Source: Terriglobia bacterium | GTDB taxonomy: Bacteria > Acidobacteriota > Terriglobia > Bryobacterales > Bryobacteraceae | NCBI GenBank assembly: GCA_020073145.1 | Contig: JAIQFS010000002.1 | Coordinates: 1-64,000, forward strand | DNA: 64,000 bases | Reading direction: 5' to 3' | Part shown: positions 45,884-51,607 of the stretch, piece by piece | Layout of the letters: each line of letters opens with the position of its first letter | Position numbering within the stretch: the first letter of the stretch is position 1 | Notes under the pieces: model-generated | What the model was told of the DNA's origin: nothing | Database searches by the model: none | The model's input: the letters and a program-made list of their open reading frames with translations, nothing else | Program-made: the position numbers and the translations under genes

Positions 45884-48409
45884 ATGTCTTTTTTCAATCG
45901 TTTAACCGCAGTCTTCCTGACTGCGCTGCTGATCGCGCCCACGGTCCCGCTGGAGGCCAAAACCAAGAAGGGCGACCGCTACCTTGCCACCGGCCGCAGC
46001 GCCGAGGCCAAACAAGACTGGGACGCCGCCCTGGACGCTTACGAAAAAGCGCTCTCGGAAGATCCTTCCGAAATCGTGTATCAAATCGCGGCGCAGAAGG
46101 CGCGCTTCCAGGCGGCCCAGGCGCACTTGGATCACGGCCTGAAGGTCCGCGACCAGGGCCAACTGGGCGAGGCTCTGCTGGATTTCCAGAAGGCCTATGC
46201 CTTTAACCCCAGCTCCTCTGCCGCCGAACAGGAAATCCGCCGCACGCAGGTGATGATCGAGCGGGAGCGGAAGCGGGTCGAGCAGACCGGCAAGGAGGCT
46301 CCGCCCGAACAACGCTCGCTCACGCCCGTCGAGGTCGCCAAGAAAGCCACCCAGGACAAGATCGACAGCATGCTCCCGCTCCCCGAGCTCAGGCCCCTCA
46401 ACGCCGATCCCATTACCCTTAAGATGACCAATCAACCGGCTCGGGTGTTGTTTGAGACTGTGGCCAAGGTGGCCGGGATCAATGTCCTCTGGGACCCGGA
46501 CATGAGTCCTCCGCCGACCGGCAGAAACCTGACTTTTGAGGTGAACAATTCCACCCTGGACCAGGCCTTGGATGATCTGGCCACCCTGACCAAGTTCTAC
46601 TGGAAGGCGCTCTCGCCCAACACCATTTTCATCACCAACGACACCGTGCAGAAGCGCCGCGATTATGAAGACGAGGTGCTGAAGGTCTTCTATCTATCCA
46701 ACATCAACACGCCGCAGGAGCTGCAGGAAGTCATCAACGCCGTGCGCACGCTGACCGAGATCAACCGCATCATGCCCTATGCGTCGCAGAACGCCATCAT
46801 CGTGCGCGGGGAGGCGGACCGCGTGGCGCTGGCGGAAAAGATCATCACCGATCTGGATAAACCGAAGGCCGAAGTCGTGGTCGATATTCTGGTTTTGCAG
46901 GCCAGCACCGTCTTCAGCCGCCAGATCACCGCGGCGCTGGCTTCTACCGGCCTCAACGTGCCGGTCAATTTCTCGCCGCGGCCGGGGCTGCAGGTGGTGA
47001 CCAATCCCACCACCACCCCCACCACCCCAACTACCGATCAGAACGGCAATCCCATCACGACGCCGGCCACCACCACCACCGGCCCCGCAGCCATTCCTCT
47101 GGCCAACCTCGGCCACCTGGCCAGTTCCGATTTCTCCATCACGCTGCCGGGCGCGCTCCTCCAGGCAGCCATGAGCGATGCCAACACCAAGGTCCTCCAG
47201 TCACCGCAGATCCGCTCCGTCGACAACGTGAAGGCGACTCTCAACATCGGCGACCGACAACCGACGGCCACGGGCAGCTTCCAGCCGGGTATCGGCGGTG
47301 TGGGAATCAATCCCCTGGTCAACACGCAATTCACCTATATCGACGTGGGCGTCAACGTGGCGATCACCCCGAGGGTGCATGACAACGGCGACGTCTCCAT
47401 GCACGTGGAGCTGGATATTTCCAACGTCAGCGGGGAGGTGAACCTGGGCGGTCTCAGCCAGCCCATCATCAGTCAAAAGAAGATCGTCCACGACATTCGC
47501 ATGAAGGAAGGGGAGGTCAATCTCCTGGGCGGCCTGATCCAGCAGCAGGAGAATAAGACCGTCACCGGCATCCCTGGGCTCTCCAGCATTCCGCTGCTGC
47601 GGCGGCTGTTCACCGGCGAGAGCGTCGACCACAATCGCAGCGAGCTCATGATTGCGCTGATTCCGCACATCGTGCGCCGCCCTGAGATCACGCCGGAAAA
47701 CCTGCGCGGCATCTCGGTCGGCAACGCCACCACCATCAAGCTCAACTACGCGCCGCGGCTGGAGGAAACCGGCGCGCCCAAACCCGCTGCGGCAGCGCCG
47801 CCTACAACAGCGCCGCCGGTAGCGGTGGCTCCCGCGCCGGTGGCTCCTGCGCCCGTCGTCCCTGTACCCTTGGCTCAAGGCGCAGCGCCAATTCCGGGCG
47901 CGCCGCCGGCCACCGCACCACCGTTGCAGCCGCCCGCCACCGCGCCGCCGTTAGGGGCGCTCATTCCCAACGCGCCCGCGCCGCCGCCCGCGGCGGCCGG
48001 AACCGTCCGCTTTCTCCCTGCCCAGGTGAACGCCACCCTCTCCGGGACATTCAGCGTGGCGGTTGCCCTCGAAGGCGGCGCCGACGTGACTTCCGCGCCC
48101 ATGCAGATCCAGTTCGATCCCAAGATTCTCCGCCTCAATGACGTCTCCGGCGGCGATTTCCTGGCTCAGGCCGGCGTGCAGCCGGTCTTCGCCAAGAACA
48201 TCCAGAACGATTCCGGTACCGCCGCCATTCAGCTCAGCCGTCCCGCCGGCTCGCCCGGCGCTTCCGGCGCCGGAGTGCTTCTGACCCTGAGCTTTCAGGC
48301 CGTCGGACGCGGCACCACCGTGGTCTCGCTGTCCAACCTCAACGTGAGAAACTCCCAAGGCCAGCCCGCGGCCGGCGGCACACCGGCCTTGCCGGTCCAG
48401 GTACAGTAA
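45884..48409 (+). CDS. Secretin with N-terminal TPRs and a cohesin-like C-terminal domain
   Basis: An 841-residue outer-membrane secretin. Signal peptide about 1-24; TPR-like repeats about 26-110; STN/secretin N domains about 170-330 (PARVLFETVAKVAGINVLW); the secretin ring about 330-610, with DVGVNVAITPRVHDNGDV and GEVNLLGGLIQQQE. A Thr/Pro linker (about 375-400) and a long Pro/Ala/Val-rich linker (640-705) precede a cohesin-like domain (about 710-841, RFLPAQVNATLSGTFSVAVAL and MQIQFDPKILRLNDVSG). It builds the outer-membrane pore of a type II secretion or type IV pilus-like system; the two pseudopilin genes that follow support this. The cohesin-like domain is extra and may bind surface or secreted partners. 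Confidence 0.88.
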   Translation: MSFFNRLTAVFLTALLIAPTVPLEAKTKKGDRYLATGRSAEAKQDWDAALDAYEKALSEDPSEIVYQIAAQKARFQAAQAHLDHGLKVRDQGQLGEALLDFQKAYAFNPSSSAAEQEIRRTQVMIERERKRVEQTGKEAPPEQRSLTPVEVAKKATQDKIDSMLPLPELRPLNADPITLKMTNQPARVLFETVAKVAGINVLWDPDMSPPPTGRNLTFEVNNSTLDQALDDLATLTKFYWKALSPNTIFITNDTVQKRRDYEDEVLKVFYLSNINTPQELQEVINAVRTLTEINRIMPYASQNAIIVRGEADRVALAEKIITDLDKPKAEVVVDILVLQASTVFSRQITAALASTGLNVPVNFSPRPGLQVVTNPTTTPTTPTTDQNGNPITTPATTTTGPAAIPLANLGHLASSDFSITLPGALLQAAMSDANTKVLQSPQIRSVDNVKATLNIGDRQPTATGSFQPGIGGVGINPLVNTQFTYIDVGVNVAITPRVHDNGDVSMHVELDISNVSGEVNLGGLSQPIISQKKIVHDIRMKEGEVNLLGGLIQQQENKTVTGIPGLSSIPLLRRLFTGESVDHNRSELMIALIPHIVRRPEITPENLRGISVGNATTIKLNYAPRLEETGAPKPAAAAPPTTAPPVAVAPAPVAPAPVVPVPLAQGAAPIPGAPPATAPPLQPPATAPPLGALIPNAPAPPPAAAGTVRFLPAQVNATLSGTFSVAVALEGGADVTSAPMQIQFDPKILRLNDVSGGDFLAQAGVQPVFAKNIQNDSGTAAIQLSRPAGSPGASGAGVLLTLSFQAVGRGTTVVSLSNLNVRNSQGQPAAGGTPALPVQVQ

Positions 48410-48416
48410 GAGCGGG

Positions 48417-48881
48417 ATGAAACGCAGAAACCAGCGCGGGCTGACTTTGGTGGAGCTGATCGTCGCCTTCACCATCATGCTCATCCTGACCGCCATGGCG
48501 GTGCCGCTGGCCCGGGCCAAGGTTCGCGCCGAACGGGAGCGGGAATTGCGCCGCGCCCTCGATGACATGCGCTACGCCATCGACCGATACAAAGACTACG
48601 CCGACGCGGGCGCTTTCGGACCGCTCAAACAAGGCACCAACGGTTATCCCGAAACCCTCGATCAACTGGTGGAGGGGGTGAAGCTCTCCGGCCCTAAAGA
48701 CCAGAAACGGGTGTTTCTGCGCCGCATTCCGCGCGACCCGTTCACCGGCAAGGCGGAATGGGGTGAGCGCAGCGATCAGGATGACCCCGAGTCCACCAGT
48801 TGGGGCGGACAAAACGTCTTCGACGTCTACAGCAAAACTAGCGAAAAGGCTCCCGATGGCACGTGCTACTGCACCTGGTGA
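48417..48881 (+). CDS. GspG-like type II secretion pseudopilin
   Basis: A 154-residue protein with a prepilin signal MKRRNQRG followed by LTLVELIVAFTIM. Cleavage by prepilin peptidase after G8 leaves the conserved glutamate at position 5 (E13). After the hydrophobic helix (about 9-29) comes an amphipathic region with LRRALDDMRYAIDRYKDYA, and later the GspG-type IPRDPFTGKAEW and GQNVFDVYSKT segments. Starts seven bases after the secretin stop and overlaps the next pseudopilin by 26 bases. Confidence 0.87.
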   Translation: MKRRNQRGLTLVELIVAFTIMLILTAMAVPLARAKVRAERERELRRALDDMRYAIDRYKDYADAGAFGPLKQGTNGYPETLDQLVEGVKLSGPKDQKRVFLRRIPRDPFTGKAEWGERSDQDDPESTSWGGQNVFDVYSKTSEKAPDGTCYCTW

Positions 48882-49281
48882 GCGCGCGCCCGCGCGCGGT
48901 CGCTTCGGCTTCACCTTCGTCGAATTGATGGTGGTAGTCTCCATCATCGTCATCCTCATTTCCATCGCCATTCCGGTCTACCAGAGGTCCATCCTTCGCG
49001 CCAAGGAAAGCGTGCTCCGGAACAACCTCTTCACCATCCGGACCGTCATCGACAACTACACCTACGACAAGCAAAAGGCACCGCAGACCCTGCAGGACCT
49101 GGTCACCGAAGGCTATCTCCGTGAAGTCCCGGTCGACCCCATCACGGGGTCCAGCCAAACCTGGCAGACCGTCATGGAGGACGCCACCCAGGCCGTGGAT
49201 CAGGATCAGCCAGGCATCTGGGAAGTCCACAGCGGCTCCAACAAGACCGGGCTGGATAACACCGCCTACGCCGACTGGTGA
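48856..49281 (+). CDS. Second GspG-like pseudopilin
   Basis: A 141-residue protein. The prepilin signal is longer and basic (to RFG at 16-18), then FTFVELMVVVSIIVILISIAIPV gives the helix with E23 at position 5 of the mature protein. The GspG features VPVDPITGSSQTW and GIWEVHSGS are present. It overlaps the first pseudopilin by 26 bases in another frame, so the ATG at 48856 is inside that gene. Two pseudopilins after the secretin suggest a partial type II system; the ATPase and inner-membrane platform genes lie elsewhere. Confidence 0.85.
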   Translation: MARATAPGERAPARGRFGFTFVELMVVVSIIVILISIAIPVYQRSILRAKESVLRNNLFTIRTVIDNYTYDKQKAPQTLQDLVTEGYLREVPVDPITGSSQTWQTVMEDATQAVDQDQPGIWEVHSGSNKTGLDNTAYADW

Positions 49282-49321: not shown

Positions 49322-50293
49322 ATGCGCAGAATCTTTCCGGTGCTGGCTGCGGTGCTGGCCGCCGGCTGCGGGTACCAGGGCGAACCGCTGCCCCCCCTGG
49401 CGAACGTTCCCTCGGCCGTGGCCGATCTCACGGCCATCCAGCGCGGCGCCCGGATTGTCGCGGGCTTCACCGTGCCCACCGTCACCACCGAGTTGGCGCC
49501 CATCAAGCCGCCGCTGACGCTCGATCTCCGCATCGGCCCGGCTTCAAGTCCATTCCAGGCCGACGCTTGGGCGGCGGCTGCCAAGACCGTTCCCCCAGTT
49601 CCCGTGAGCAAAGGAATCGCGCGCTACGAAATTGCAGCGGAAAGCTGGACGGGTCAGACGGTCGTGCTGGGAGTCCGCGCGATCGGAACCAACGGAAAAT
49701 CCTCCCCCTGGTCCAACTTCGTGACCGTCCCGGTGGTGGCTGCCCCCGAATCCCCAGCCGATCTGCGGGCCGAAGCGACTCCCGACGGCGTGCGGCTCAC
49801 CTGGCAAGGACGCGGCACGGACTTCCGGATCTTCCGGCGCACCGGCTCGGAAGACTTCACCACTCTGGCCGACGCCGCGCAGCCGCCGTGGACCGATCCT
49901 TCCACCGCCTACGGCACGCGCTACGCATACCGTGTGGTGACCATCGTCAAGCTTGCCGGCAACCGCGAAGCGGAAAGCGAGCCTTCGCTGGAAGTCTCCA
50001 TCACCCCCGTAGACGTCTTCCCGCCCGCCGTGCCCACCGGCCTGCGCGCCACCGCCACGCCCAATTCGGTCGAACTCTCCTGGGAGGGCAATCGCGAGCC
50101 GGACCTTGCCGGTTACCGCATCTACCGGCAGGCGCCCGGCGGCGCGTTCCAGAAGATCGCCGATGCCGCGATTCCCACCTACTCGGATCATGCCGTCGAA
50201 TCCGGCAAAACCTACCGCTATGCGGTCAGTGCGGTCGATCAGACCGGAAATGAAAGCTCCCGTTCCACACTGGCTGAGGCCGCCCTGGAATAG
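49322..50293 (+). CDS. Lipoprotein with fibronectin type III domains
   Basis: A 323-residue lipoprotein: signal with lipobox LAAGC and lipidated C16. An N-terminal region (about 25-130) is beta-rich and unassigned. Two fibronectin type III domains follow, about 135-230 (SPADLRAEATPDGVRLTWQG) and 235-320 (PTGLRATATPNSVELSWEG, AGYRIYRQAPGG). It lies 40 bases after the pseudopilin stop and probably acts with the secretin at the outer membrane. A possible TACCCT -10 box lies nine bases before the ATG. Confidence 0.82.
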   Translation: MRRIFPVLAAVLAAGCGYQGEPLPPLANVPSAVADLTAIQRGARIVAGFTVPTVTTELAPIKPPLTLDLRIGPASSPFQADAWAAAAKTVPPVPVSKGIARYEIAAESWTGQTVVLGVRAIGTNGKSSPWSNFVTVPVVAAPESPADLRAEATPDGVRLTWQGRGTDFRIFRRTGSEDFTTLADAAQPPWTDPSTAYGTRYAYRVVTIVKLAGNREAESEPSLEVSITPVDVFPPAVPTGLRATATPNSVELSWEGNREPDLAGYRIYRQAPGGAFQKIADAAIPTYSDHAVESGKTYRYAVSAVDQTGNESSRSTLAEAALE

Positions 50294-50360
50294 GTTCTTG
50301 GACGAGCCCGATACACCGCTAGCTCGTGGTGCTTCAAGTCTGTAACAATACAAGCCTTGC

Positions 50361-50390
50361 TTGCATAGCGTACAGAAACCGGGGTATACT
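50361..50390 (+). promoter_or_regulatory. Promoter of the aroF leader
   Basis: TTGCAT (50361-50366) and TATACT (50385-50390) are 18 bases apart, close to consensus. The start site would be near 50397, leaving only a few bases before the leader peptide ATG. Confidence 0.65.
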
Positions 50391-50400
50391 GGTCGTTTCC

Positions 50401-50463
50401 ATGTCGGAAGCCTACGCCAACTCGTTTAGGTTCCGGTTCTGGCCTTTTCGCCAGGTCCGGTAG
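50401..50463 (+). CDS. Aromatic-rich leader peptide of the aroF attenuator
   Basis: A 20-residue frame with stop at 50461. Six of its residues are aromatic: Y5, F9, F11, F13, W14 and F16, concentrated in codons 9-16. This is typical of transcription attenuation leaders for aromatic amino acids, where ribosome stalling at Phe, Tyr or Trp codons decides the downstream hairpin. CCGG-CTGGC and GCCAG-CCGG (50433-50460) can form a hairpin over codons 11-20, and the terminator follows at 50498. No Shine-Dalgarno sequence; the mRNA is almost leaderless. I have not proved translation. Confidence 0.75.
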   Translation: MSEAYANSFRFRFWPFRQVR

Positions 50464-50497
50464 AGCGGCGTTGGTCGAGACGGCTGAATTCGTTCCC

Positions 50498-50528
50498 AAC
50501 CCACCCGCTCGGCGGAGTGGGTTTTTTA
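50498..50528 (+). terminator. Attenuator terminator upstream of aroF
   Basis: AACCCAC (50498-50504) pairs with GTGGGTT (50517-50523), with CCG and CGG extending the stem around a five-base loop, and six T residues follow. It lies 38 bases before the aroF start, inside the leader transcript. GTTGG at 50470-50474 can pair with CCAAC at 50496-50500, which would disturb the terminator stem and could act as antiterminator. Confidence 0.78.
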
Positions 50529-50566
50529 TTTGGTTCGTTGTCTGATCGCACTATTGGAGGGTACAC

Positions 50567-51607
50567 ATGATTATCTCGATGCGGCCTCATGCCACCCGGG
50601 AGGAGATTGAGCACGTCTGCGAACGCATCCGCGAGTTCGGGTATCGGGTCCACTCGATTGAAGGCGAAGAACGCGTGGTCATCGGAGTGGTGGGCATGGG
50701 CGACGTGACCGCCTGCCTGGAGTCGCTCGAGGCCACACCCGGAGTGGAGCGCGCCATGCGCATTTCGGCGCCATACAAATTCGTCAGCCGCGAATTCAAA
50801 AAGGAAGACTCGGTCATCAAGGTGAACGGCCTGGATATCGGCGGCGATGAGTTCATCGTCATGGCCGGGCCGTGCTCGGTCGAGAACGAAAAGCAGATCA
50901 TGGAGACGGCCGAAGGCGTGGCCAAAGCCGGAGCCCAGATGCTTCGCGGCGGCGCCTTCAAGCCGCGCACCTCGCCTTACGATTTCCAGGGTCTCGAGCT
51001 CGAGGGCCTCAAGCTGCTGCGCAAAGCCAAGCAGGCCACCGGCCTGGGCATCATCACCGAAGTGATGAGCGACCGCGATGTCGAGCTCGTGGCCGAATAC
51101 GCCGACTGCATGCAGTTGGGCGCGCGGAATATGCAGAATTTCGCCTTGCTGAAAACCCTGGGCTCCTGCGGCCGCCCCATCCTGCTCAAGCGTGGTCTCA
51201 GTTCCACCATCAAGGAACTGCTCATGTCGGCCGAGTACATCGTGGCGCACGGCAATCCCAACGTGATCCTGTGTGAGCGCGGGATCCGCACCTTCGAGAC
51301 GGCCACACGAAACACTTGCGATATCTCCGCCGTTCCCGTGCTCAATGAGCTCACGCATCTGCCGGTGGTCCTCGATCCCAGCCACGCCGCGGGCAAGCGC
51401 AGCCTGGTGCCCGCTCTCTCGCGCGCCGGCGTGGCCATCGGCGCCGATGGCCTGATCGTGGAAGTGCATCCCTACCCCGAGAAGGCCGTCAGTGACGGCG
51501 CGCAGTCGCTGACCCTGGATGGATTCCGCCAGATGATGCGCGACCTGCAGCCCTACATCCGCCTCTGGAAGGAAATGCGCAGTCTGGAAACCGCCGCCGT
51601 GGCTTAG
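50567..51607 (+). CDS. aroF: 3-deoxy-7-phosphoheptulonate synthase (type I beta)
   Basis: A 346-residue enzyme that condenses phosphoenolpyruvate and erythrose 4-phosphate, the first step of aromatic amino acid biosynthesis. Residues 1-67 form a ferredoxin-like regulatory domain as in the Thermotoga enzyme, where Tyr and Phe bind for feedback inhibition. The barrel follows with [51 protein letters not shown] and [14 protein letters not shown] precedes the ATG. Gene expression is probably attenuated by the leader at 50401-50528. Confidence 0.95.

Follow-up and report, generated by a model that had tools for sequence, protein, structure and literature searches.

A putative near-leaderless attenuator with mixed aromatic codons upstream of a DAHP synthase gene in Bryobacteraceae and related Acidobacteriota

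The window, i.e. the whole stretch of 64,000 nucleotides that was analysed, is part of contig C59 in the 6.3-Mb genome of a soil bacterium of the family Bryobacteraceae (Acidobacteriota). At 50567-51607 it carries a gene for a DAHP synthase of type I with an FXD domain (NCBIfam, Pfam); the first-pass annotation had named an aroF-type gene after the leader, and a pathway gene does lie downstream. Among the matches listed, the closest named relatives of this gene belong to the Bryobacterales (Acidobacteriota). Further upstream, at 45884-49281, lie two pilin-like genes and a gene that is secretin-like and contains a cohesin domain. The features considered here are given below, with their basis in brackets.

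50312-50331, + strand: upstream of the promoter, an imperfect inverted repeat, TACACC-N7-(C)GTGGTG, that may be a regulator site (motif count in relatives)
50361-50366, + strand: -35 element TTGCAT (sequence; -35/-10 pair in relatives)
50385-50390, + strand: -10 element TATACT, ending 10 bases before the leader ATG (sequence; position kept in relatives)
50401-50463, + strand: leader frame MSEAYANSFRFRFWPFRQVR and stop, 20 codons, near-leaderless, no Shine-Dalgarno site (ORF translation, relatives)
50415-50424, + strand: region 1 (CGCCAACTCG, codons 5-8), anti-antiterminator partner of region 2 (pairing in relatives)
50433-50460, + strand: hairpin over the control codons, possibly a pause hairpin or part of the 1:2 structure (folding, pair count)
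50463-50474, + strand: region 2 (GAGCGGCGTTGG), its first base being the last of the stop codon; antiterminator 5' arm (relatives, folding)
50496-50510, + strand: region 3 (CCAACCCACCCGCTC), antiterminator 3' arm and terminator 5' arm (relatives, folding)
50498-50527, + strand: intrinsic terminator, stem 50498-50523, T-run 50522-50527, predicted -17.3 kcal/mol (folding, relatives)
50556-50561, + strand: Shine-Dalgarno-like GGAGGG before the DAHP synthase gene (sequence)
50567-51607, + strand: DAHP synthase gene, PRK08673/TIGR01361 with ferredoxin-like FXD domain (NCBIfam, Pfam)

The two promoter elements with their 18-base spacer, and the ATG at 50401 that opens the 20-codon frame, were all found where the first-pass annotation had placed them. 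It had also described six aromatic residues packed at codons 9-16; the frame does contain six, but the packing is true of five, a Tyr being codon 5. Both the hairpin over the end of the frame (50433-50460) and the T-tailed terminator were recovered by folding. The evidence from the window alone is modest: a consensus promoter scan found no promoter (the TTGCAT/TATACT pair scores 8/12), the fold z-score of 50396-50532 is -2.75, and shuffled sequences do as well as the window's 2:3 duplex (p 0.51). No Rfam family reached its gathering score in the window; four matches within 50290-50600, at E 1.7-9.9, were far below the gathering scores. A riboswitch, a T-box and the known Rfam leaders (Trp leader, Phe leader) were rejected, as there was no covariance-model match at gathering score.

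Relatives were taken from the best 80 loci on named contigs among the matches listed and from 101 genomes of the family, 97 of them with a match; stretches were obtained from 55 of these. We left out 15 loci that share their last 100 upstream bases with another and two whose upstream part was too short, and kept 113 distinct upstream regions with genes at least 60% identical, 111 of which are above 62% identity. An ATG leader 120-200 bases before the gene, with at least four aromatic residues in nine codons, occurs in 81/111 upstream regions vs 2.4 in shuffles, and the stricter rule of at least six aromatic residues gives 37 vs 0.05. The shuffles are a fair control against selection by aromatic content, and this conservation means that the aromatic leader is more than chance. 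The 79 leaders used below were picked by rule; 64 of them are in alignment A1, and the others (L012, L042, L126, L006, L107, L155, L119, L163, L122, L032, L018, L138, L139, L039 and L043) are absent from it, their layout or length being unsuitable or their terminator call misplaced. For the 34 loci that the rule did not pick, states were assigned by eye: L050 counts as a leader, 12 are leader-like (one of these 12, L141, was then left stateless by its cut contig) and 21 have none; some of these assignments are weak, e.g. L110 with one Phe. The mixture of Phe, Tyr and Trp codons that had been pointed out in the window is kept in the relatives: all three residues are present in 67 of the 79 leaders, the remainder having Phe and Tyr (7), Phe and Trp (4) or Phe alone (1).

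In 76/79 leaders a -10 box ends at a distance of 5-14 bases from the leader ATG, on its upstream side (11.8 in shuffles), and with a -35 partner added the count is 64/79 (4.2 in shuffles); the leader start codon was picked blind to the promoter. The DAHP synthase ATG, taken as a comparison, has such a box in just 2/79 loci. A Shine-Dalgarno-like word precedes 2/79 leaders vs 60/79 DAHP synthase starts. By these counts the nearly leaderless character described for the window extends to the relatives, and the predicted near-leaderless initiation is a conserved trait of the element. On comparative sequence grounds the frame and its distance from the promoter are shown to be conserved. Boxes resembling a -10 element about 10-12 bases before the start codon have served in print as the mark of a leaderless gene; across three Acidobacteria genomes an average of 13.3% of genes were so classed, according to the passage concerned (PMC3160421).

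The helices were compared in the 64 aligned leaders against column shuffles, which ignore relatedness and which related sequences can therefore exceed: the terminator (3:4) is paired in 99.0% of cells with 26 double-change cells vs 6.5, and the antiterminator (2:3) in 92.8% with 16 vs 6.1. The covariation score of 2:3 was reached by 0/500 shuffles, while the count of doubly changed pairs in this helix is unremarkable (105/500). Predicted helices 2:3 and 3:4 are in this comparison shown to be conserved and covarying. Comparison with relatives had been named at the outset as the check on the element, and both the leader frame and the terminator with its antiterminator are conserved there. Helix 1:2 is paired in 81.4% of cells vs 33-57% when slid; it has 14 double-change cells vs 8.9 (13/500 as high) and a covariation score matched by 152/500 shuffles, i.e. 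the putative helix is conserved without clear covariation. Region 1 is coded by YASS-like residues, which may be why non-aromatic residues of the leader are conserved too.

Linked changes on three strands, from triplets selected for best complementarity, were seen among the 79 loci: GAGTGG/CCACTC/GAGTGG (49) becomes GAGCGG/CCGCTC/GAGCGG (3) or GGGTGG/CCACCC/GGGTGG (2). The 2:3 duplex beats shuffles at p<=0.05 in 64/77 loci, L126 and L138 being left out of this count, and GAGTGGCGTTGG, the consensus that follows the leader, shows complementarity to CCAAC-CCACTC in the terminator arm if one C is skipped. In 31/64 loci region 2 starts within 0-3 bases of the stop codon's first base, and in some leaders (e.g. 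L122, L032, L139) it lies inside the frame; under an assumed footprint, a ribosome at the stop codon masks at most 5 of the 12 bases of region 2 in 30/64.

The codon hairpin is paired in 69.3% of cells in the 64 leaders (59.0% when slid by -1), with 34 double-change cells vs 18.7 and a score reached by 16/500 shuffles; its pair-type number is below nearly all shuffles. Its folds have a mean z of -2.37, with 39/64 at p<=0.05. The Arg codon of the [FY]R[FY] motifs in the 79 leaders is CGA in 45/69 cases, TTTCGATTT alone accounting for 27, whereas elsewhere CGA is rare (6/145 Arg codons in five window genes); the preference probably exists because CGA forms the codon hairpin.

We propose, with a probability of roughly 0.92, that this locus is a ribosome-mediated transcription attenuator by which the supply of aromatic aminoacyl-tRNA would control the DAHP synthase gene. 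The layout of such a system, as first suggested for the window, is borne out on comparative grounds by the conserved frame and the covarying 2:3 and 3:4 helices. We infer the start site, the stalling, the termination, the folding order and the response to each amino acid as follows. Judging from the promoter position, the RNA would start about 3 bases before the leader ATG, and the ribosome would load without a Shine-Dalgarno site. With ample charged tRNA it would reach the stop codon and cover region 2, and the 3:4 terminator would form. When Phe, Tyr or Trp is short, it would stall on codons 9-16, covering region 1 and leaving region 2 free; 2:3 would then form ahead of the synthesis of region 4, allowing transcription of the gene. 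If there is no translation, the expected outcome is that 1:2 forms and transcription terminates.

Predicted folds of the window's own RNA agree with part of this scheme. With a ribosome at codon 9, 11, 13, 14 or 16 the fold up to region 3 holds 2:3, whereas a ribosome placed on the stop codon removes 2:3 and leaves the terminator as the main fold. The predicted fold without any ribosome still contains 2:3 up to region 3, so 1:2 does not win in the window before region 4. The full-length fold is predicted to be the terminator at every ribosome position tried, and antitermination must therefore rest on folding order, i.e. on 2:3 forming before region 4 is made; the predicted energies are nearly equal (-17.7 kcal/mol for the 2:3 antiterminator vs -17.3 for the terminator). 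An alternative pairing of 50470-50474 with 50496-50500 had been proposed. GTTGG and CCAAC are indeed complementary, but this pairing appears only when forced, as the free fold slides the inner part: up to region 3 the free fold has -40.5 vs -40.0 kcal/mol with GTTGG/CCAAC forced, i.e. 0.5 better. In the predicted fold up to region 3, GAGCGG (50463-50468) pairs with CCGCTC (50505-50510).

Mixed codons need not mean mixed sensing. The aroR leader of Corynebacterium glutamicum responds to Phe, and Tyr supply is reported to be without effect in the passages on aroR (PMC11802643). The switch might likewise sense mainly Phe, with the Tyr and Trp codons serving RNA pairing or reflecting history and their starvation having little effect, a reading to which we would give somewhat less than an even chance. 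Phe is the commonest of the three (on average 3.4 per leader vs 1.7 Tyr and 1.2 Trp, 79 leaders), the codons of the FRFW stretch form a hairpin arm, and the control zone holds Phe in 62/64 leaders, Tyr in 48/64, Trp in 17/64 and all three in 10/64, although these last counts come from a simple footprint model that is an assumption. The joint presence of all three aromatics in 67/79 leaders points the other way.

It is very improbable that the hairpins act without translation, as a protein- or ligand-binding leader in which RNA conservation produces the frame as a by-product. The codon hairpin is itself under selection and constrains the codons, yet promoter distance and start codon are conserved for the aromatic frame in its own right, and by eye the leaders show synonymous and Phe/Tyr/Trp exchanges. 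Aromatic codons make up 37.8% in frame vs 10.0 and 7.6% out of frame, a composition and contrast that are partly due to selection, because the 79 leaders were chosen by aromatic content; the lack of an Rfam match in the window also speaks against a binding leader. That a promoter and an ordinary terminator flank a short frame by chance is scarcely credible: the weak promoter and duplex scores of the window alone would allow it, but the conservation of leader, promoter distance and helices over many species contradicts it.

Mixed codons were said to suit a common first enzyme of the pathway; the mixing is conserved, but the argument is weakened by two further DAHP synthase genes in the same genome, both of type II (G000:C44:26815-28122 and G000:C57:58918-60219). 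Upstream stretches of these two, of two chorismate-binding matches and of one prephenate dehydratase match, inspected by eye in this genome with start codons uncertain, revealed no clear leader. Covariance model R1 finds this site alone and no second copy in the genome (next match E 8.6).

In a sample of the class, 132/299 genomes match the covariance model of the element at E<=0.01, with strong matches in families f1, f5 and f6; weak matches in f10 are probably plain terminators. In the phylum sample 3/396 genomes match at E<=1e-5, and these three belong to the window's own family. By these matches three families of the class, at the least, contain the predicted element. Among the relatives that carry it is L032, from Acidobacteriaceae bacterium KBS 96, whose record bears no metagenome-assembly label. 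Among 46 loci of the class search (the 26 best returned and 20 picked), a DAHP synthase homologue is present in 42, of which 40 have an aromatic leader under a looser rule; outside these 42, L210 ends just past the leader and L217 is without an aromatic leader. Two loci of one genome, L207 and L209 on two contigs, have leader and terminator before the first DAHP synthase codons only and then diverge, i.e. they are rearranged copies.

According to the hand assignment, the leader is absent in 20/111 relatives, and in 8/20 of these a -10 box adjoins the DAHP synthase ATG. The leader state changes 12 times on the FastTree gene tree, at least 5 changes being forced by starred branches, vs 19.5 with shuffled labels. 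The pattern reads most simply as repeated loss, with direction and root inferred and the states partly assigned by eye. L003, L007, L084, L095, L161 and L162 lack the attenuator, and in these loci it is the DAHP synthase gene that looks leaderless, a -10 box preceding its ATG by 6-9 bases. L012 and L042 have a Bryobacteraceae-type DAHP synthase (84% and 67% identical to that of the window) in records labelled otherwise, and their leaders (AETGNFEL) and terminator are similar to each other and different from the rest; these genes may have been transferred.

At distant DAHP synthase loci, an ATG frame with at least five aromatic residues in nine codons was found in 9/33 vs 0.53 in shuffles. Four of these loci (L049, L050, L052, L053) share one similar peptide, in records labelled Smithellaceae, Syntrophaceae and Deltaproteobacteria; by record label, the other mixed-aromatic leaders are L059 (Calditrichota), L062 (Armatimonadetes), L076 and L078 (Lentisphaerae) and L077 (Woesearchaeota). 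A hairpin and T-run follow several of the nine leaders by eye. A broader reading, which we hold tentatively and at just short of even odds, is that one attenuator integrates all three aromatics through a leaderless leader peptide and is old in one class of Acidobacteriota, while the mixed leaders before DAHP synthase genes of several phyla (records labelled Syntrophaceae and Deltaproteobacteria, Calditrichota, Armatimonadetes, Lentisphaerae) probably have separate origins.

In the trp and pheA attenuators of Escherichia coli, as in the element predicted here, regions 1-4 form mutually exclusive helices and the control codons precede the terminator; the E. coli systems differ in sensing one amino acid and in a leader led by a Shine-Dalgarno site. 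Multivalent attenuators of the ilv type are similar in that one leader carries codons for several products of a branched pathway, and dissimilar in that they sense branched-chain and not aromatic amino acids. The aroR transcript of C. glutamicum is reported to be leaderless. The original paper on aroR is reportedly that of Neshat et al. 2014. As far as the passages on it go, aroR is the nearest described case, with a Phe-Tyr-Phe leader peptide before the DAHP synthase gene aroF (PMC4046766, PMC11802643). It is like the present element, by description, in having more than one aromatic residue in the leader, a DAHP synthase gene and, as predicted for the present element, a dependence on aromatic tRNA supply; it is unlike it in being actinobacterial and in lacking Trp in the cited motif, whereas Phe, Tyr and Trp are mixed here. 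A mixed leader before a DAHP synthase gene has a precedent in aroR (PMC4046766), which is reported to respond to Phe and not to Tyr (PMC11802643, which also mentions the E. coli trp and pheA attenuators). The passages on trpL of Sinorhizobium meliloti describe an attenuator RNA that starts at the ATG of the leader frame, i.e. is leaderless, which is close to the start predicted here; unlike the present case, trpL concerns tryptophan, the trpE(G) gene and Alphaproteobacteria (PMC7298713). Shewanella aroF is tabulated as 'attenuator sensing tyr-tRNA' in an entry citing E. coli work (PMC2659441).

No description of an aromatic attenuator of Acidobacteriota was recognised in the open-licence literature searched. 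Within the literature covered, the element, its host group and a leader with all three aromatics appear to be new, while the kind of system is known. The analysis assigns to Acidobacteriota a predicted attenuator with gene, leader, structure and distribution. The element offers a natural test of the weight that a single leader gives to each of three amino acids, and of attenuation where the ribosome must load on a leaderless RNA.

The inverted repeat upstream of the promoter is possibly the operator of a regulator. A looser motif, ACACC-N6..12-GGTG, occurs in 26/111 upstream regions vs 1.7 in mononucleotide shuffles; a leader by rule is present in 13 of these 26 and absent in 13, and in 10 of the 13 leader-bearing regions the motif starts 82-89 bases before the leader ATG. 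A regulon of the repeat was rejected, the own genome having 9 matches (one mismatch) vs 49 for the reversed control pattern. Exact matches were found at 17 places in 16/61 genomes of the family: around 10 of them no aromatic-pathway gene was recognised by eye, and 7 lie, by position, at the DAHP synthase gene.
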